Shown piece by piece: positions 13,730-23,608 of a stretch of DNA of 43,136 nt. Positions within the stretch are counted from its first letter, which is position 1, and each line of letters opens with the position of its first letter. The notes under the pieces are model-generated. The model saw only the letters and a list, made by a program, of their open reading frames with translations, searched no databases and was not told the origin of the DNA. A program made the position numbers and the translations under genes. The DNA is from Alphaproteobacteria bacterium (lineage in GTDB: Bacteria; Pseudomonadota; Alphaproteobacteria; UBA9219; RFNS01): the NCBI GenBank assembly GCA_009927055.1, contig RFNS01000247.1, positions 1 to 43,136 of the forward strand, read 5' to 3'.

Positions 13730-15856
13730 ATGTTCAACTGGCTTTCAAACATCAGCATACGCTATAAGCTTGTGGCTGCCTTATTTCTTGCGGGTTTTAT
13801 TCCTGGCCTCGCCCTGCTTGGGCTATTTCAGATGAAAAAAGAGAGTTTTACTCAGGTAAAACTGGATGAAATGAGGGAAATCGCCAGAACAACTAACGAT
13901 ATTATCGAACGCAATTTGTTTGAACGTTATGGCGATGTGCAGGCGTTTGGCTATAACACCGCCGCCCACAACCCTGAGAACTGGAAAATTCAGGATGGCG
14001 CACTGGTTGATACCATGAACCAGTATATGACCGCCTATGGCCTGTATAAGCTGATGATTTTGGTCGATCCCAAGGGCGATGTGCTGGCCGTCAACAGCAA
14101 AGATCTGAAAGGCAATAAACTTGATACCTCTTATCTTTATTCTGTGAACTTTGCCAATGCAAAATGGTTCAAAGATGCCATGGCCGATAATTTTCTTGTC
14201 GGTAAAAATGGTTTGACAGGAACAGCCGTGCAGGAAGTTTCGGTGAATGAGGATGTGTCTAGGCTGTATAATGATGATGGCTTTACCATCGCCTATTCAG
14301 CCAAGGTTTTTGATAAAGATGGAACCTTGATTGGTGTGTGGGTCAACTTTGCCGATTTTGGCCTGGTGGAAGATATTGTACGCAGCAACATCAGCCGCAT
14401 GATTTCTCGCGGCATGACCGATGCTCACGGCAAGCTGATTGACCGCAATGGCGCCCTGTTGATCGATTTTGAAGAAGACGCCATTGATACCTATAAACGC
14501 GATCTGGCTGAAATGGCCAAGGTGAATTATATCGCCGATGGTTTTACCCCCGCCATAAACGCTGTGAAGGGCCAGGCCGGAACGGTGATTGAATATGACC
14601 CCGCCGATAATGCGACCGATTTTGTGGGGTATGCCAAATCTGAAGGCGCCAACGGCTATCCTGGCCTAGGGTGGAGCGCCTTAGTGATGGTGCCAAAAGA
14701 ACAGATGCTGGCCGATCTTATTGAAGTTGAGCGGGAGTTTATTATCACCACTCTTATACTGATGGCGCTGAATTTGTTGGGTGGATTCTGGATCGGCGGC
14801 ACCTTCTCATCGCCCATCCGTGCGGCCACCGATACGATGCTGAAACTGGCCAATGGCGATATGAAGGTGGATGTTAAACAGGTGAAAGGCAAGGATGAAA
14901 TCAGCAGCATCTGGCGCGCCCTGAATGTGTTCAAAGAAAATGGCCTGCAGATGGAAAATATGAAGGCCGAGCAAGCAAGGCGCGACCAGCAGGCCACGGA
15001 AGACAGGAAACGCGCCATGATTGAAATGGCCGATAATTTCCAGGCGAGTGTGGGGAATATTGTCAGCGTTGTGGCCTCGGCCGCGACCGAGCTTCAATCG
15101 AGCGCCGAAAGTTTAACAACCTTGGCCGAACAAACCAGCAAGCAAACCAGCACTGTCGCTTCGGCGGCTGAGGAAACAACGGTGAGCATTCAAACCGTCG
15201 CCGCCTCGTCTGATCAGCTGAATAATGCCATTACACAAATCAGTCGACAGGTGAACGACAGCACGCGCATGACACAAGATGCGGTGGCTGAAATCAACAC
15301 AACAAACCAGACCGTTCAAACTCTGGCCGATTCATCGAACCAGATTGGGGATGTTGTCAGGCTTATTCGTGATATTGCCGAGCAGACAAACCTTCTGGCT
15401 CTCAACGCCACCATTGAAGCGGCGCGCGCCGGCGAAGCCGGAAAAGGATTTGCCGTTGTCGCCAGCGAGGTGAAAAATCTGGCCAACCAAACCGCCAAAG
15501 CAACCGAAGATATTTCGGTGCGCATCAACCAAATGCAGGAAGTATCGGGGCAGGCTGTCTCGGCCATCAAGAAAATTGGCAACGTGGTACAAGAAATTAA
15601 TGCGATTGCTGGTAATATCGCCTCGGCGGTTGAGCAACAATCATCCAGCACGCGTGAAATTGCGGCCAGTGTTTCTCAGGTCTCTGAAGGGACGGCCGAG
15701 GTGACGCGCAACATCGTGGTGGTTGCCCAAGGATCAGATGAATCGCGCAGTGCGTCCGATCAGGTGCTGATGGCCTCGCGCGAGCTTTCGGTGCAGGCCG
15801 AAAAACTTCAGCGCGAGATGGATAATTTCCTGAACCGCATTCGCACCGGCGGATAA
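13730..15856 (+). CDS. Methyl-accepting chemotaxis protein (N-terminal TM, Cache-like sensor, HAMP, MCP signalling domain)
   Basis: Signalling hairpin [50 protein letters not shown]; two TM segments flank a ~300-aa sensor. Confidence 0.95.
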
Positions 15857-15857
15857 T

Positions 15858-17276
15858 TTATCGCAGCAATACGGTCAGGCGCTGGTTGTTTCGCCGTAAG
15901 GTGATTTGCCAGCCCTGCGTTTTTTGTCGCAAAACTTTTTTAACGTCATCTACTGTTTTAATTTGCTGCCTATTGATGGCCAGCAGCACATCGCCCACCG
16001 CCAATGAAAAGCCACCCAACGCGCTATTTTCTGAAGCCTGAATAATCACCACCCCTTCGCCATCGATGCCCAGCTGCAATTCATCAGCCAGGGCGGGCGA
16101 AAGATTGGCGATGGTGATACCATCCAGCGGATGTTGGCCCCGCAGTTGCGTTTCTTGTCTTGGTGTTGTTTCGGGCGGGCCGCCCAGCACCATGTTCACC
16201 ACACGTTCCTGTCCGCTTTGAGGATTCAAAAGCGAAAGGCGCGCCGTGGCCCCCACGGCCATGGTGGCAATTCTAAAACGCAGTTCCTCCAAATCGGCCA
16301 CCATTTTTCCGTCCAGCGATCGTATCACATCACCCACCGCTACCCCCGCTTTTTGCGCGGGCGAATGGGGGCGTATTTTTGTGACCAAAACCCCTTGCGG
16401 CTTCCCCAACCCCAGCGATTGCGCAATATCGGCCGTCACGTCTTGGCCATCCAGGCCCAGCCAAGGCCGCACCAGCCGCTTTTGACCCGTCTCAACCGCA
16501 TTAATGGTGGCGCGCACAAGGTTGGAGGGAATGGCAAAGCCAATGCCAATGCTGCCGCCTGACTCGGTAAAAATGGCGGTGTTTACGCCCACCAGTTTGC
16601 CATCCATGCTGACCAGCGCGCCGCCCGAATTGCCGGGGTTAATGGCCGCATCGGTCTGCAGATAATAATTCAAATCATTATTGCCAATATCGGTGCGGGC
16701 GATGGCCGAAATTACCCCGCTTGTCACCGTCTGGCCAATGCCAAACGGGTTGCCGATGGCCAGCACCAAATCGCCCACCTCGATTGTATCGCTGTCGCGC
16801 AACTCCAGCGCCTGAAAACGCTGGCCCTGCGTCTCCTGAATGCGCAAAACAGCCAGATCGGTTTTGGGGTCGCTCACCTCGATTGTGGCTGAAAATTCGC
16901 GCCTGTCAGACATAACAATTTTTATTTCATCCGCATTGGCAATGACATGATGATTGGTCACAACCAACCCTTCGGGCCGCACAATAACCCCCGAACCCAA
17001 AGAATTTTCGGCGCGCTCTCGGCTCAGGCCAGGCGGAAGGCTGCGGCCAAAAAATTCACGAAAAAAAGGATCATTCATAAAGGGGTTGACCATGCGCTGC
17101 CGCACAATTTTGTGGGCATAAATGTTCACAACTGCGGGCGATGCCTGTTTCACCAGCGGCGCGAATGAATAGGTCAACTGATCGCGTGCATGGGGGATTT
17201 CTTGGGCCAGCGCCGTGGTCGTGGTGGTGCAACCCATCATTAGCGCAAGCGCCAGCGCAACGATTCTGATATTCAT
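15858..17276 (-). CDS. htrA: DegP/HtrA-family periplasmic serine protease with two PDZ domains
   Basis: GSGVIVRPEGLVVTNHHVI (catalytic His), D in DPKTDLAVLRI, NPGNSGGALVSMDGKLVG (catalytic Ser), PDZ motifs GVLVTKIRPHSPAQKAGVAVGDVI. Confidence 0.95.
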   Translation of the reverse strand: MNIRIVALALALMMGCTTTTTALAQEIPHARDQLTYSFAPLVKQASPAVVNIYAHKIVRQRMVNPFMNDPFFREFFGRSLPPGLSRERAENSLGSGVIVRPEGLVVTNHHVIANADEIKIVMSDRREFSATIEVSDPKTDLAVLRIQETQGQRFQALELRDSDTIEVGDLVLAIGNPFGIGQTVTSGVISAIARTDIGNNDLNYYLQTDAAINPGNSGGALVSMDGKLVGVNTAIFTESGGSIGIGFAIPSNLVRATINAVETGQKRLVRPWLGLDGQDVTADIAQSLGLGKPQGVLVTKIRPHSPAQKAGVAVGDVIRSLDGKMVADLEELRFRIATMAVGATARLSLLNPQSGQERVVNMVLGGPPETTPRQETQLRGQHPLDGITIANLSPALADELQLGIDGEGVVIIQASENSALGGFSLAVGDVLLAINRQQIKTVDDVKKVLRQKTQGWQITLRRNNQRLTVLLR

Positions 17277-19607: not shown

Positions 19608-19988
19608 TTATTTCTTGGTTGCCAGTTTTTTGCCTGCGATGGGTTTTGCAGGCCCTTTGCGCGTGCGCGCATTGGTGTGGGTGCGTTGTCCGCGCACGGG
19701 CAAACCTTTGCGATGGCGCAGGCCACGATAGCAGGCCAAATCCATCAGGCGCTTGATGTTCATGGAAACTTCACGGCGAAGATCGCCCTCTACCTGATAG
19801 TTTTTGTCGATATACTCACGAATTTGCAGCACTTCATGATCGGTCAGCTGATTGACGCGCTTAGGGGCCGGGATTTTCAAAGCATCGCAAATCTCGTTCG
19901 CGAACTTTGGCCCAATGCCATAAATGTACTGCAGGGCGATAATCACCCGCTTACCCGTTGGAATGTTTACACCAGCGATACGTGCCAC
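19608..19988 (-). CDS. rpsM: 30S ribosomal protein S13 (GTG start)
   Basis: [26 protein letters not shown]...[24 protein letters not shown]. Codon 34 of the listed ORF is GTG and fits the canonical N-terminus. Confidence 0.97.
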
Positions 19989-20105: not shown

Positions 20106-20133
20106 AATATAGGGCCCTGAAAAACCCTGTCAA
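20106..20133 (-). promoter_or_regulatory. Candidate sigma70-type promoter driving rpsM-rpsK-rpoA-rplQ
   Basis: Minus strand TTGACA (20133-20128) - 16 nt - TATATT (20111-20106), just downstream of the kinase stop and ~118 nt upstream of the rpsM GTG. Confidence 0.6.
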
Positions 20134-20150: not shown

Positions 20151-21878
20151 CTAGGCCACCTTCGAGGATAACTGATAATCTTTCATGTGGGGCAGCGGAA
20201 TAATCATCTCAAAGGTGGTTCCCACATAGATTTCTGAGGTCACTTTGATACTTCCCCCCAGTTTCTTAACTTCTTCCTTAACGGCCTCCAGCCCAACCCC
20301 GCGACCTGAAAGCTGGCTGGCCCCATCGCGGGTCGAGACGCCCCAATCGAAAATACGCTGGATCAGCTGCCGATCATCATCAAAGCGCCAGTTGCCTTCA
20401 GGATCGATGTTGGCCAGCTTCTGACGAATGCGGTTGGGGTCGATGCCGTTGCCATCATCAGAAATATCGATTTTCAGGCGGTCAAAATTTTCGCCCTTCA
20501 GAACAGCGGCATTGATGGTGATTTGCCCTGCAGGGTCTTTTCCGCGGGCCATGCGCGTGACGGGTGCCTCGACCCCATGATCAACAATGTTGCGGCACAT
20601 GTGGGTGAGTGAAAAAAAGAACGGCGCCAGGGGGCGCACCAGAATGCGCGGACTATCTCCGGTAAATAAAAGGGGGTGCAGTTGTTTTTCGTGCTGCTGG
20701 GCCAGCTCACGCAATTCACGCGCGAAGCTGCCAAAACATTCGCGCAGCGGCACGGCGGCAATCTGATCGCAGTAGGCTGTCACCACCTCATGAGAGGCGA
20801 GATGGTTGTGCAGCACTTCTATAAAATCATAAATGCGCTGCTCGCTGATTTGATAAACGCTGCCCTGCTCATGTTCTTCTTCATTAATCAGGCCTTTCAG
20901 CTCAATCAGCACTGAATTAAGCTGCGCTTCAATTTTATCAGCGGCCTTGTGTAACTCGGCCCTGAACAGCATATCGGTGGTAATGGCGGGCTTGCGCAGG
21001 TCATCTTCTAATTCATGGATCAAGTTCCCAAACTCCAGCAAATTAAAGTGCTTCACAGCGCCCTTAATGGTGTGCAGCTGGCGCAGAAGGTTGGCATTTT
21101 CTGAAAGTTTGTTGTCGTTGCTTTTCGCAAGCTGAATAAATTCACGAAGATAGCGGATGGTGGTCACAAACTGGTTCCGTTCTTGAAAAATGCGCACAAT
21201 CATGGCGGCGTAATCTTGCTGGCGCTGGGCAGCGGCCACGGCGGTCAGTTCTTCTGTTTTATCGGTGGCGATGACAACAATGCTCACCAACCGCTCGTTC
21301 CGATCACGCACGGGGCGGTAACTCAGGTGCACATGACGCACCCCCGCATCGCTCAGGTTGTCGGGTAAAAATTTTACAGCATCATCAAAACCCAGGGCGT
21401 GGGTGGGGTCGAACAAAACCTCCAGCCAGTTGTAAAAATCCTCCCTCTTTGCTTCGGGGATGCCCAGAACCTGATCAATAGGCTTGCCGGATGGATCAAT
21501 CTCCAAAAGATCAATACACGCCTGCGAATAAACCGTGCTGCACACTCCTTGCTTATCAAAACTCAAGAACCCCTGCCCCAAACTGTTGACCAAAACTTCG
21601 GTCAGTCGTGCCTGCTCGGTGACACTTTTATGAACTTTGATGTTCAGCCAGTACAGATATGAAATGCCGCCCGCTGCGGTGGCCACCATAATCAGCAGTG
21701 CAACGTGCGAACGTATCGGCTCAAGATTAAAGACAGGCAATGCCGCGGCCACAAAAAGCATCACCACAATGCCCACCAGCCCCAGTAATGTTACGTGCAC
21801 CAGATCGAATTGTTTGATGGCGTTGGTCAGCACAGCCTTGCTTTCGGCGGCGCGAGACAGGGCTTTGTCGTCCATCAC
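20151..21878 (-). CDS. Membrane-anchored CheA-like histidine kinase (2 TM + PAS-like + Hpt + HATPase_c)
   Basis: Two hydrophobic helices near the N-terminus; PAS-like VLVNSLGQGFLSFDKQGVC; Hpt LLRQLHTIKGAVKHF; CheA-type N-box HMCRNIVDHGVE; DDGNGID; SGRGVGLEAVKEEVKKLGG. No CheW-like domain after the HATPase. Confidence 0.88.
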   Translation of the reverse strand: MMDDKALSRAAESKAVLTNAIKQFDLVHVTLLGLVGIVVMLFVAAALPVFNLEPIRSHVALLIMVATAAGGISYLYWLNIKVHKSVTEQARLTEVLVNSLGQGFLSFDKQGVCSTVYSQACIDLLEIDPSGKPIDQVLGIPEAKREDFYNWLEVLFDPTHALGFDDAVKFLPDNLSDAGVRHVHLSYRPVRDRNERLVSIVVIATDKTEELTAVAAAQRQQDYAAMIVRIFQERNQFVTTIRYLREFIQLAKSNDNKLSENANLLRQLHTIKGAVKHFNLLEFGNLIHELEDDLRKPAITTDMLFRAELHKAADKIEAQLNSVLIELKGLINEEEHEQGSVYQISEQRIYDFIEVLHNHLASHEVVTAYCDQIAAVPLRECFGSFARELRELAQQHEKQLHPLLFTGDSPRILVRPLAPFFFSLTHMCRNIVDHGVEAPVTRMARGKDPAGQITINAAVLKGENFDRLKIDISDDGNGIDPNRIRQKLANIDPEGNWRFDDDRQLIQRIFDWGVSTRDGASQLSGRGVGLEAVKEEVKKLGGSIKVTSEIYVGTTFEMIIPLPHMKDYQLSSKVA

Positions 21879-21886
21879 CGCACCCT

Positions 21887-22393
21887 TCAGTGCTGCTGGA
21901 GTTGATGAACAGCGATGTGAACCTGAAATTGCCTATCGGCAATGTTAAAGGGCATGACCAGATATCGCCCACGATGAAAGTGGTTGATAAATTGCCCGCG
22001 ACCCGACAGCACGCTGGGAATGGCCAGTTTTAATTGGAAGCCACGGCTGTTCAGCGCATTTTTCACATGCCCATAAATCATGTTCGTAATTTCAGAGACG
22101 GCATCCATCGCCATGTCGTGTGTCACCTGAACATCCTTGCCCAGAACCTTTGGCAGAATGTTTTTCATTGTTTCTTCGTGGAAGCAGATGGTCAGCGTCC
22201 CTTCCAAATCATTCTGCACCATCCCAATCACCCCGCTCACATCGCCCGATAAGACAACGGGTCCCTCCCCCACTTCATATGTGCCGGGCTTTACATCTTC
22301 AGAAAAAGTGTTTTTCATCGCGTCAATGACAGCGCGACCAATTTCAGCCGAAAGCTCCTCGTTCAGGGCGGCATCAAGCGCAGGTTGATCCAT
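21887..22393 (-). CDS. CheX/CheC-like chemotaxis phosphatase domain protein
   Basis: AMDAVSEITNMIYGHVKNALNSRGFQLKLAIPSVLSG resembles the E...N CheX/CheC signature. Confidence 0.8.
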   Translation of the reverse strand: MDQPALDAALNEELSAEIGRAVIDAMKNTFSEDVKPGTYEVGEGPVVLSGDVSGVIGMVQNDLEGTLTICFHEETMKNILPKVLGKDVQVTHDMAMDAVSEITNMIYGHVKNALNSRGFQLKLAIPSVLSGRGQFINHFHRGRYLVMPFNIADRQFQVHIAVHQLQQH

Positions 22394-22403
22394 AAGGCGT
22401 CTC

Positions 22404-22859
22404 CTATCGCGCGGCTGAGGGTTGAAGGGTGCTGCGTTTGCGCTTCAACCACTCGTTAATCTCGAACAATTTTTTGCTCAGGTCGGCGGGCGAAACAGGC
22501 TTGATAATATAAGAAGTGGCCCCCGCCTTGATCGCCTTCATAATGTTCTGCTGCTCTGATTCCGCTGTCAGCATGACAAAGGCCGTGTCGGCATATTCGG
22601 GTTTCGATCTGAAAAAACTCAAAACCTCCAGCCCCGAAATGGTGGGCATGTTCCAATCTAAAAAAACCACATCATACGGTTGGCTGATATCACGGGCTTT
22701 CTGCACCTGCTCAATCGCTTCATTGCCATCAGAGGCTGTTTGAACATTAGTGATCTTGGCTTCGTTCAGCGTGTTACGCACGAATTGCCGAACAAGGAAG
22801 TGGTCATCGGCCACAAGGACTTTCAGGTTAGATAGTGCGCTCACGACACAGCCTCGCAA
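22404..22859 (-). CDS. CheY-like single-domain response regulator
   Basis: LKVLVADDHFLVRQFVRNTL...YDVVFLDWNMPTISGLEVL...FVMLTAESEQQNIMKAIKAGATSYIIKPVSPADL: DD, phospho-Asp, T and K conserved. The exact start is uncertain; the ORF extends to 22916. Confidence 0.92.
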   Translation of the reverse strand: MRGCVVSALSNLKVLVADDHFLVRQFVRNTLNEAKITNVQTASDGNEAIEQVQKARDISQPYDVVFLDWNMPTISGLEVLSFFRSKPEYADTAFVMLTAESEQQNIMKAIKAGATSYIIKPVSPADLSKKLFEINEWLKRKRSTLQPSAAR

Positions 22860-22954
22860 ACCCATGATGGAAAGGGATGAAGATGCAATAAAACTCTCAC
22901 ACTTTGGTTGATGCACTGTTAAGAATTGATGAAATACTGCCTAAAAACAGCGCG

Positions 22955-23608
22955 TTAGGCCCTATTGGCAAGAACATCTCTGATTTGTTTTGACACACTC
23001 TCAGCCGCCGCCATGCCATCGACGCTGCAATACAGGCCTTTTTCCATATAATAGGGCAGAACGGGGGCCGATTGATCGCGGTAGGCGGCCAGGCGGGTTT
23101 TCATGCTTTCGGGGTTATCATCGGCACGGCAGGCAAATTCGGTATGGCCGCACTTATCGCACACACCCTCAACCTTGGGTTGGCGGAATTTTTTATGGTA
23201 ACCCGTGCCACAATGGGCGCAGCTAAAGCGGCCACTGACCCGCTCAATCAGCAGGTTTTCATCAACTTTCAGTTCAATCACAGCGCATAAGGGCTTGTTT
23301 TCCATGGTTAACATCTGTGTCAGCGCCTCAGCCTGAGGAATGGTGCGCGGAAAACCATCCAGAATAAAGCCGCGCGCGCAATCAGGCTCACGAATTCTGT
23401 TGGCGATCAGGTCGATCATCAAACCATCGGGCACCAATTTTCCATCGGCCATCATTTGTTTTGCTTGGAGGCCCAGCGGCGTGCCGGCCTTCACGGCCGC
23501 CCGCAGCATATCGCCCGTGGCGATTTGAACCATTCCCATTTCTTCTTCCAGCGCCTTGGCCTGAGTGCCTTTGCCTGCGCCTGGTGGCCCGAAAAGGATA
23601 ATGTTCAC
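22955..23608 (-). CDS. adk: Adenylate kinase (zinc-type lid)
   Basis: MNIILFGPPGAGKGTQAKAL; DGFPRTIPQAE; CAHCGTGYHKKF...CDKCG lid. Confidence 0.98.
   Translation of the reverse strand: MNIILFGPPGAGKGTQAKALEEEMGMVQIATGDMLRAAVKAGTPLGLQAKQMMADGKLVPDGLMIDLIANRIREPDCARGFILDGFPRTIPQAEALTQMLTMENKPLCAVIELKVDENLLIERVSGRFSCAHCGTGYHKKFRQPKVEGVCDKCGHTEFACRADDNPESMKTRLAAYRDQSAPVLPYYMEKGLYCSVDGMAAAESVSKQIRDVLANRA

Follow-up and report, generated by a model that had tools for sequence, protein, structure and literature searches.

The window analysed here, a 43,136-nucleotide stretch of DNA from an alphaproteobacterium, raises the question of what three signalling genes are doing inside a ribosomal gene cluster, and whether the ribosomal genes drive their expression. 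Gene calls and Pfam domains confirmed that three co-directional signalling genes lie between adk and rpsM, as an earlier note on this DNA had proposed. The order is adk, a CheY-like receiver (RR), a CheX-type phosphatase, a histidine kinase (HK) and rpsM, all on the minus strand (Table 1). The adk-RR gap is 110 bp, the RR-CheX and CheX-kinase spacings are ~10 bp and ~8 bp, respectively, and the packing of the three genes (below, the trio) is operon-like. The genome that contains the window (G000) is 2.09 Mb in size and 97% complete. The premise that adk and rpsM are normally adjacent in alphaproteobacteria also held: in 25 of 29 class genomes from outside the order whose rpsM locus was fetched, adk was found 34-352 bp from rpsM. 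The gap was 0.8-1.1 kb in three others (L159 of G078, L181 of G044 and L185 of G036), where other single-gene insertions at the adk/rpsM boundary are likely, and in one genome adk was out of reach. Past rplQ, about 4 kb from the trio, the window also carries a gene for a methyl-accepting chemotaxis protein (MCP; 13730-15856, plus strand), whose end abuts a DegP/HtrA-like protease gene (15858-17276, minus strand); MCP and DegP/HtrA-like protease genes are located near rplQ in G003 (L197) too.

Table 1. Features of the adk-rpsM region, in positions of the window
Feature	Position	Strand	Basis
adk	22955-23608	minus	
Putative CtrA-like promoter element, conserved; window copy TTAACAGTGCATCAA...	22890-22922	minus	leave-family-out PWM
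CheY-like single-domain receiver	22404-22844	minus	Pfam PF00072; alignment A1, 27 orthologues
CheX-type phosphatase	21887-22393	minus	Pfam PF13690; PDB CheX relatives; alignment A2
Membrane-anchored CheA-like histidine kinase (two TM, PAS, Hpt/P1, P3-like helices, P4)	20151-21878	minus	Pfam; PDB match; AF2; Foldseek; hydropathy
Two TM helices, residues about 21-49 and 58-82, short loop between	21633-21818	minus	hydropathy; AF2 helices
PAS-like sensor region, residues 102-206	21261-21575	minus	AF2; weak Pfam PAS match
Hpt/P1 four-helix domain, residues 234-328	20895-21179	minus	Pfam Hpt; AF2
P4 CheA-type ATPase, residues 378-561	20196-20747	minus	Pfam HATPase_c; Foldseek
Sigma70-type promoter of rpsM-rpsK-rpoA-rplQ, TTGACA-16-TATATT	20106-20133	minus	11/12 matches
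rpsM	19608-19988	minus	

A synteny survey, which the earlier note had called for, revealed that the trio at adk-rpsM is a property of the order and is not peculiar to this genome. Out of 33 order genomes searched, every one that was at least 90% complete contained an orthologue (three families, 15 genera), and the arrangement adk-RR-CheX-HK-rpsM-rpsK-rpoA was observed in all loci that span the site, in all three families. Among 385 class genomes, kinase matches above 800 bits were confined to this order; G249, from a different family, yielded a relative at 389 bits, and the other class matches were at the level of CheA. In the kinase tree, all 28 trio kinases formed one clade (support 99/97) with the families as subclades, and we therefore conclude that a single insertion in the ancestor was followed by vertical descent. 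Judging from synteny and the tree, the insertion is ancient, order-wide and at a very unusual place, while the parts list is biochemically mostly ordinary.

Domain analysis of the kinase gave 62 bits for HATPase_c (cut-off 26) and 24.3 bits for Hpt, just below the 24.6 cut-off, in Pfam. The phospho-acceptor His269 (21072-21074) is invariant in all 28 trio kinases. Residues 373-563 match CheA in the PDB (E 2e-25), and Foldseek aligned the P4 domain with 1i58 (TM 0.79 of target); two helices are predicted at residues 346-374, and the P3P4 structure 4xiv was matched with a TM of 0.61 of target. A coiled coil follows the PAS-like region and precedes Hpt. The kinase has no P2 domain and no Pfam match to CheW/P5, and the protein stops about 14 residues past P4. 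A survey of CheA proteins lists the CheW domain as one of four core domains found in all of them (PMC10542144). Since the trio kinase lacks this domain, that definition places it outside the CheAs proper, as a CheA-like protein, and a true second CheA was ruled out. The claim of a chemotaxis-like kinase, phosphatase and receiver module at an odd site thus stood, with all catalytic residues conserved, but the term "Hpt phosphorelay" was imprecise: the Hpt domain is the P1 of a CheA-like kinase, and phosphate would therefore be transferred directly from His to Asp, as the domain order suggests. Two cysteines of the PAS-like region, Cys113 and Cys121, are conserved in 27 of 28 orthologues, and the counts are 12 and 15 among 19 more distant relatives; a redox or ligand-binding role for them is a guess.

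The phosphatase scored 66.4 bits with PF13690 (cut-off 27), and both E101 and N104 of its ExxN motif, the catalytic motif of CheX (PMC3510030), are invariant (28/28, alignment A2). The cut-off of the NCBIfam CheX equivalog was missed (52.6 of 280 bits). CheX is rare in Alphaproteobacteria: at E<=1e-8, it was found in seven of the 385 class genomes, five of which belong to this order. Elsewhere in the class, an alphaproteobacterial CheX (L155, G267:C5) adjoins a receiver that scored 110 bits with the trio model.

The receiver scored 96 bits with the Response_reg model (PF00072, cut-off 30), and D13, D14, D58, T93, Y112 and K115 are invariant in 27 of 27 sequences (alignment A1); Asp58 is the phospho-acceptor and Y112 the CheY-type aromatic switch. 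Its best solved relatives are CheYs, and the NCBIfam CheY equivalog NF007901 was missed with 93.8 bits (cut-off 189). The gene had previously been given a start at 22916, which had to be revised: orthologues begin with MSQL..LKVLIADDH at the residue encoded by GTG 22844, and the promoter element described below overlaps the longer open reading frame, so the shorter frame was adopted. The protein ends in a short WLKRKR-type tail. It is a stand-alone CheY-like domain with no output domain and must therefore act through binding of a partner. Across families f1 and f3, receivers are 72-82% identical, as high as S13, versus only about 43-60% for the kinase and CheX. In family f2, receiver identity drops to 52-57% while S13 stays near 80%, a divergence that suggests a change of partner.

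The adk-RR gaps share one element; position weight matrices (PWMs) for it were trained without the family tested, and loci were called at p of 0.001 or less. A 33-nt element with TTAACCAT was found ahead of the receiver gene in 25 of 27 loci, and no match was obtained in L030 and L035. The order consensus, TTAACCATRCGGCAAnnnnTTTRTG, is located 78-203 nt 5' of the receiver start. The copy in the window is diverged: its PWM score is 11.7 (p=0.001), with 10 of 15 consensus positions kept. The exact 15-mer consensus with <=3 mismatches was not met at the expected place in the window, where the site has five mismatches and is recognised by the PWM only. In seven of seven genomes, the 25-nt form (<=3 mismatches) occurred once, before the trio, and a large regulon with the exact 25-nt motif was ruled out. 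On reading, a sigma54 promoter was also ruled out (no GG-N10-GC). In the literature, TTAACCAT is the CtrA half-site and TTAA-N7-TTAA the full one, which sits close to -35 in promoters that are activated (PMC3692519, PMC6180460). The window element reads TTAA-N7-TCAA. CtrA is encoded in both G000 and G013 (NF045991, 422 bits, cut-off 350), and TTAACC-N5-GTTAA or GTAA is present upstream of fliF in G000 and G007; the fliF promoters of the order share the TTAA-N7-[TG]TAA frame with the trio element. GCAA predominates over TTAA in the second half of the element, and conservation extends beyond the length of a CtrA box; therefore, another regulator is possible. We regard the element as a putative promoter of the CtrA type, which serves flagellar and cell-cycle genes, and CtrA would bind to it.

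Taken together, these data lead us to favour, with moderate confidence, the view that the trio is an independent, CtrA-type membrane-to-CheY switch: a self-contained operon that entered once, in the ancestor of the order. The signalling operon would have been inserted at the adk/rpsM boundary and then stayed there. A cue would be read by the membrane-tethered kinase through its TM helices and/or the PAS region, possibly with the participation of the Cys113/Cys121 pair; His269 would be autophosphorylated by the CheA-type ATPase domain, the phosphate would be passed to receiver Asp58, and the ExxN motif of CheX would take it off. The protein bound by the receiver is most probably one of motility or the cell cycle, such as the flagellar switch. 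Most transcription of the trio would start at its own CtrA-type promoter, with a separate sigma70 promoter behind the kinase serving the ribosomal alpha operon. The switch probably acts on motility in an order that is uniformly flagellated, as judged from every genome with good data: FliM was found in 30 of 33 order genomes, and FlhA in both FliM-lacking genomes tested. The trio thus co-occurs with flagella in a sample that contains no non-flagellated genome to separate the two, and a motility output is suggested by this co-occurrence, by the CtrA-type promoter and by the likeness to CheY. In little-studied flagellated bacteria, the system is a concrete candidate, open to testing, for an input to motility or the cell cycle that needs no receptor.

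CheY-type receivers also work outside flagella, and the relatives of the trio point in that direction. RR-CheX-FIST-HK modules were found in G249 (L206) and G018 (L209/L212). In G001 (L074), FIST and a kinase are accompanied by the terminal part of a CheX, and in the Bdellovibrionota, RR-FIST-HK-STAS/CheX is present on a Bdellovibrionales contig (L076), where a STAS-CheX fusion protein (L076:6443-7357) adjoins the RR-FIST-kinase genes. Kinases of these modules are homologous to the trio kinase over PAS-Hpt-P4 (385-426 bits in alphaproteobacteria, 348 in L076), hydropathy revealed no TM helices near their N-termini, and their CheX proteins match the trio CheX. In NosP systems, FIST domains bind heme and sense NO, acting together with soluble kinases (PMC12570481). 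The receivers of the FIST modules scored 114-156 bits with the trio receiver, compared to <=99 bits for the flagellar and che CheYs tested. The receiver may then control a c-di-GMP enzyme, a cell-cycle kinase, pili or adhesion, as NosP-type and DivK-type systems do, and control of the cell cycle would fit the CtrA-type promoter as well. We consider such an output possible but somewhat unlikely, given that the receiver is a bare domain whose best solved relatives are CheYs and that the order is flagellated throughout. FIST as an obligatory sensor was ruled out, since it is absent from most order genomes (missing from G000 and from 27 of 33, present in six of 33). In G031, a second RR-CheX-kinase set (L210:8766-11525), with neither FIST nor TM helices, is present at a site away from the trio, which this genome has as well; its kinase has a Cys-rich N-terminus.

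A different answer to the question of location would be that transcription from spc/adk reads through into the trio, so that a behaviour is tied to growth rate, secretion or translation. The fixed position in the ribosomal cluster across the order and the short adk-RR gap of the window are consistent with this possibility, and a check of both intergenic gaps of the window turned up no terminator-like site on the minus strand. Against it, the trio has its own conserved element upstream, and rpsM has a separate conserved promoter: TTGACT-16-TATACT, with the same 16-nt spacer, is found ahead of rpsM in 14 of 19 loci. With a CtrA-type element before the trio and a sigma70-type promoter after it, the trio lies at the boundary of two transcription units, and a boundary between an adk unit and an rpsM unit is a natural safe site for insertion. 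Moreover, relatives of the trio kinase elsewhere are not near ribosomal genes. Read-through from adk may contribute, and growth-rate coupling is possible only by this route, but the co-transcription with ribosome, SecY and Adk genes that had been envisaged for the trio is not favoured, and we consider ribosomal coupling unlikely as the basis of its expression. In a combined arrangement, swimming cells would use the CtrA-type promoter and growing cells read-through from the ribosomal/secretion operon, and the growth-to-motility decision of the whole order would fall to a single membrane kinase/CheX/CheY switch. We consider this unlikely too; if true, selection for dual control would explain the unchanging position of the trio. 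In the HK-rpsM gaps, conserved leader-like stretches were observed, GACTGGGAGC...GAACCGGTCG in L016/L018/L037 and GCGCAACCGACTGGATGTGCCTGATTAAAGGGCGGATTTGGTGCGGCTTTTTTT in L032-L034, which are perhaps alpha-operon leader controls or attenuators.

It is very improbable that the kinase serves an ordinary chemosensory array as a second CheA driven by chemoreceptors: the CheA-type P4, the chemotaxis families of CheX and CheY and the nearby MCP gene agree with that idea, but the kinase lacks the CheW/P5 domain present in all surveyed CheAs (PMC10542144), has TM and PAS regions of its own, and a long CheA homologue is encoded separately in G000 (894-aa open frame). In the reading that we favour, a signalling operon that stands on its own has become fixed order-wide at a transcription-unit boundary within the gene cluster that bacteria conserve most. 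Its kinase represents a CheA-like, membrane-anchored type that would not depend on CheW and that is paired with a CheX and a CheY of its own.

Each component has counterparts in known systems. With CheA, the kinase shares P1 (Hpt) and a P4 with the CheA-type N-box HxxRNxxDHG, and its predicted P3-like helices may correspond to P3, but it is devoid of CheW and P2 domains and has TM and PAS regions. CheX of the Thermotoga/Borrelia type has PF13690 and ExxN in common with the trio phosphatase, whose partner kinase, in contrast, is not a CheA and which falls short of the NCBIfam CheX equivalog. Cle proteins of Caulobacter, like the trio receiver, are single-domain CheY-like regulators encoded outside che clusters in a flagellated alphaproteobacterium; they have an arginine-rich tail with tandem [Y/F]xGP[D/E][R/K]R (PMC5677366), whereas the trio receiver has no such tail, which ruled out its assignment to the Cle family, and keeps its phospho-site and its kinase. 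The NosP-NosK-NosR systems for NO combine a sensor input, a soluble-type kinase and a receiver in one operon and are linked to the trio, through its relatives, by FIST; the trio differs in having neither FIST (in G000) nor a c-di-GMP output domain, in its CheA-like, membrane-anchored kinase and in the presence of CheX. The FIST modules share with the trio a homologous kinase, receiver and CheX and the PAS cysteines, but their soluble kinases are accompanied by a separate FIST sensor, while the trio has two TM helices, lacks a gene for FIST and is fixed at its ribosomal site. Most simply, the trio can be read as descending from an RR-CheX-FIST-HK-type module that became tethered to the membrane and lost FIST, and we infer that the change ran in this direction.
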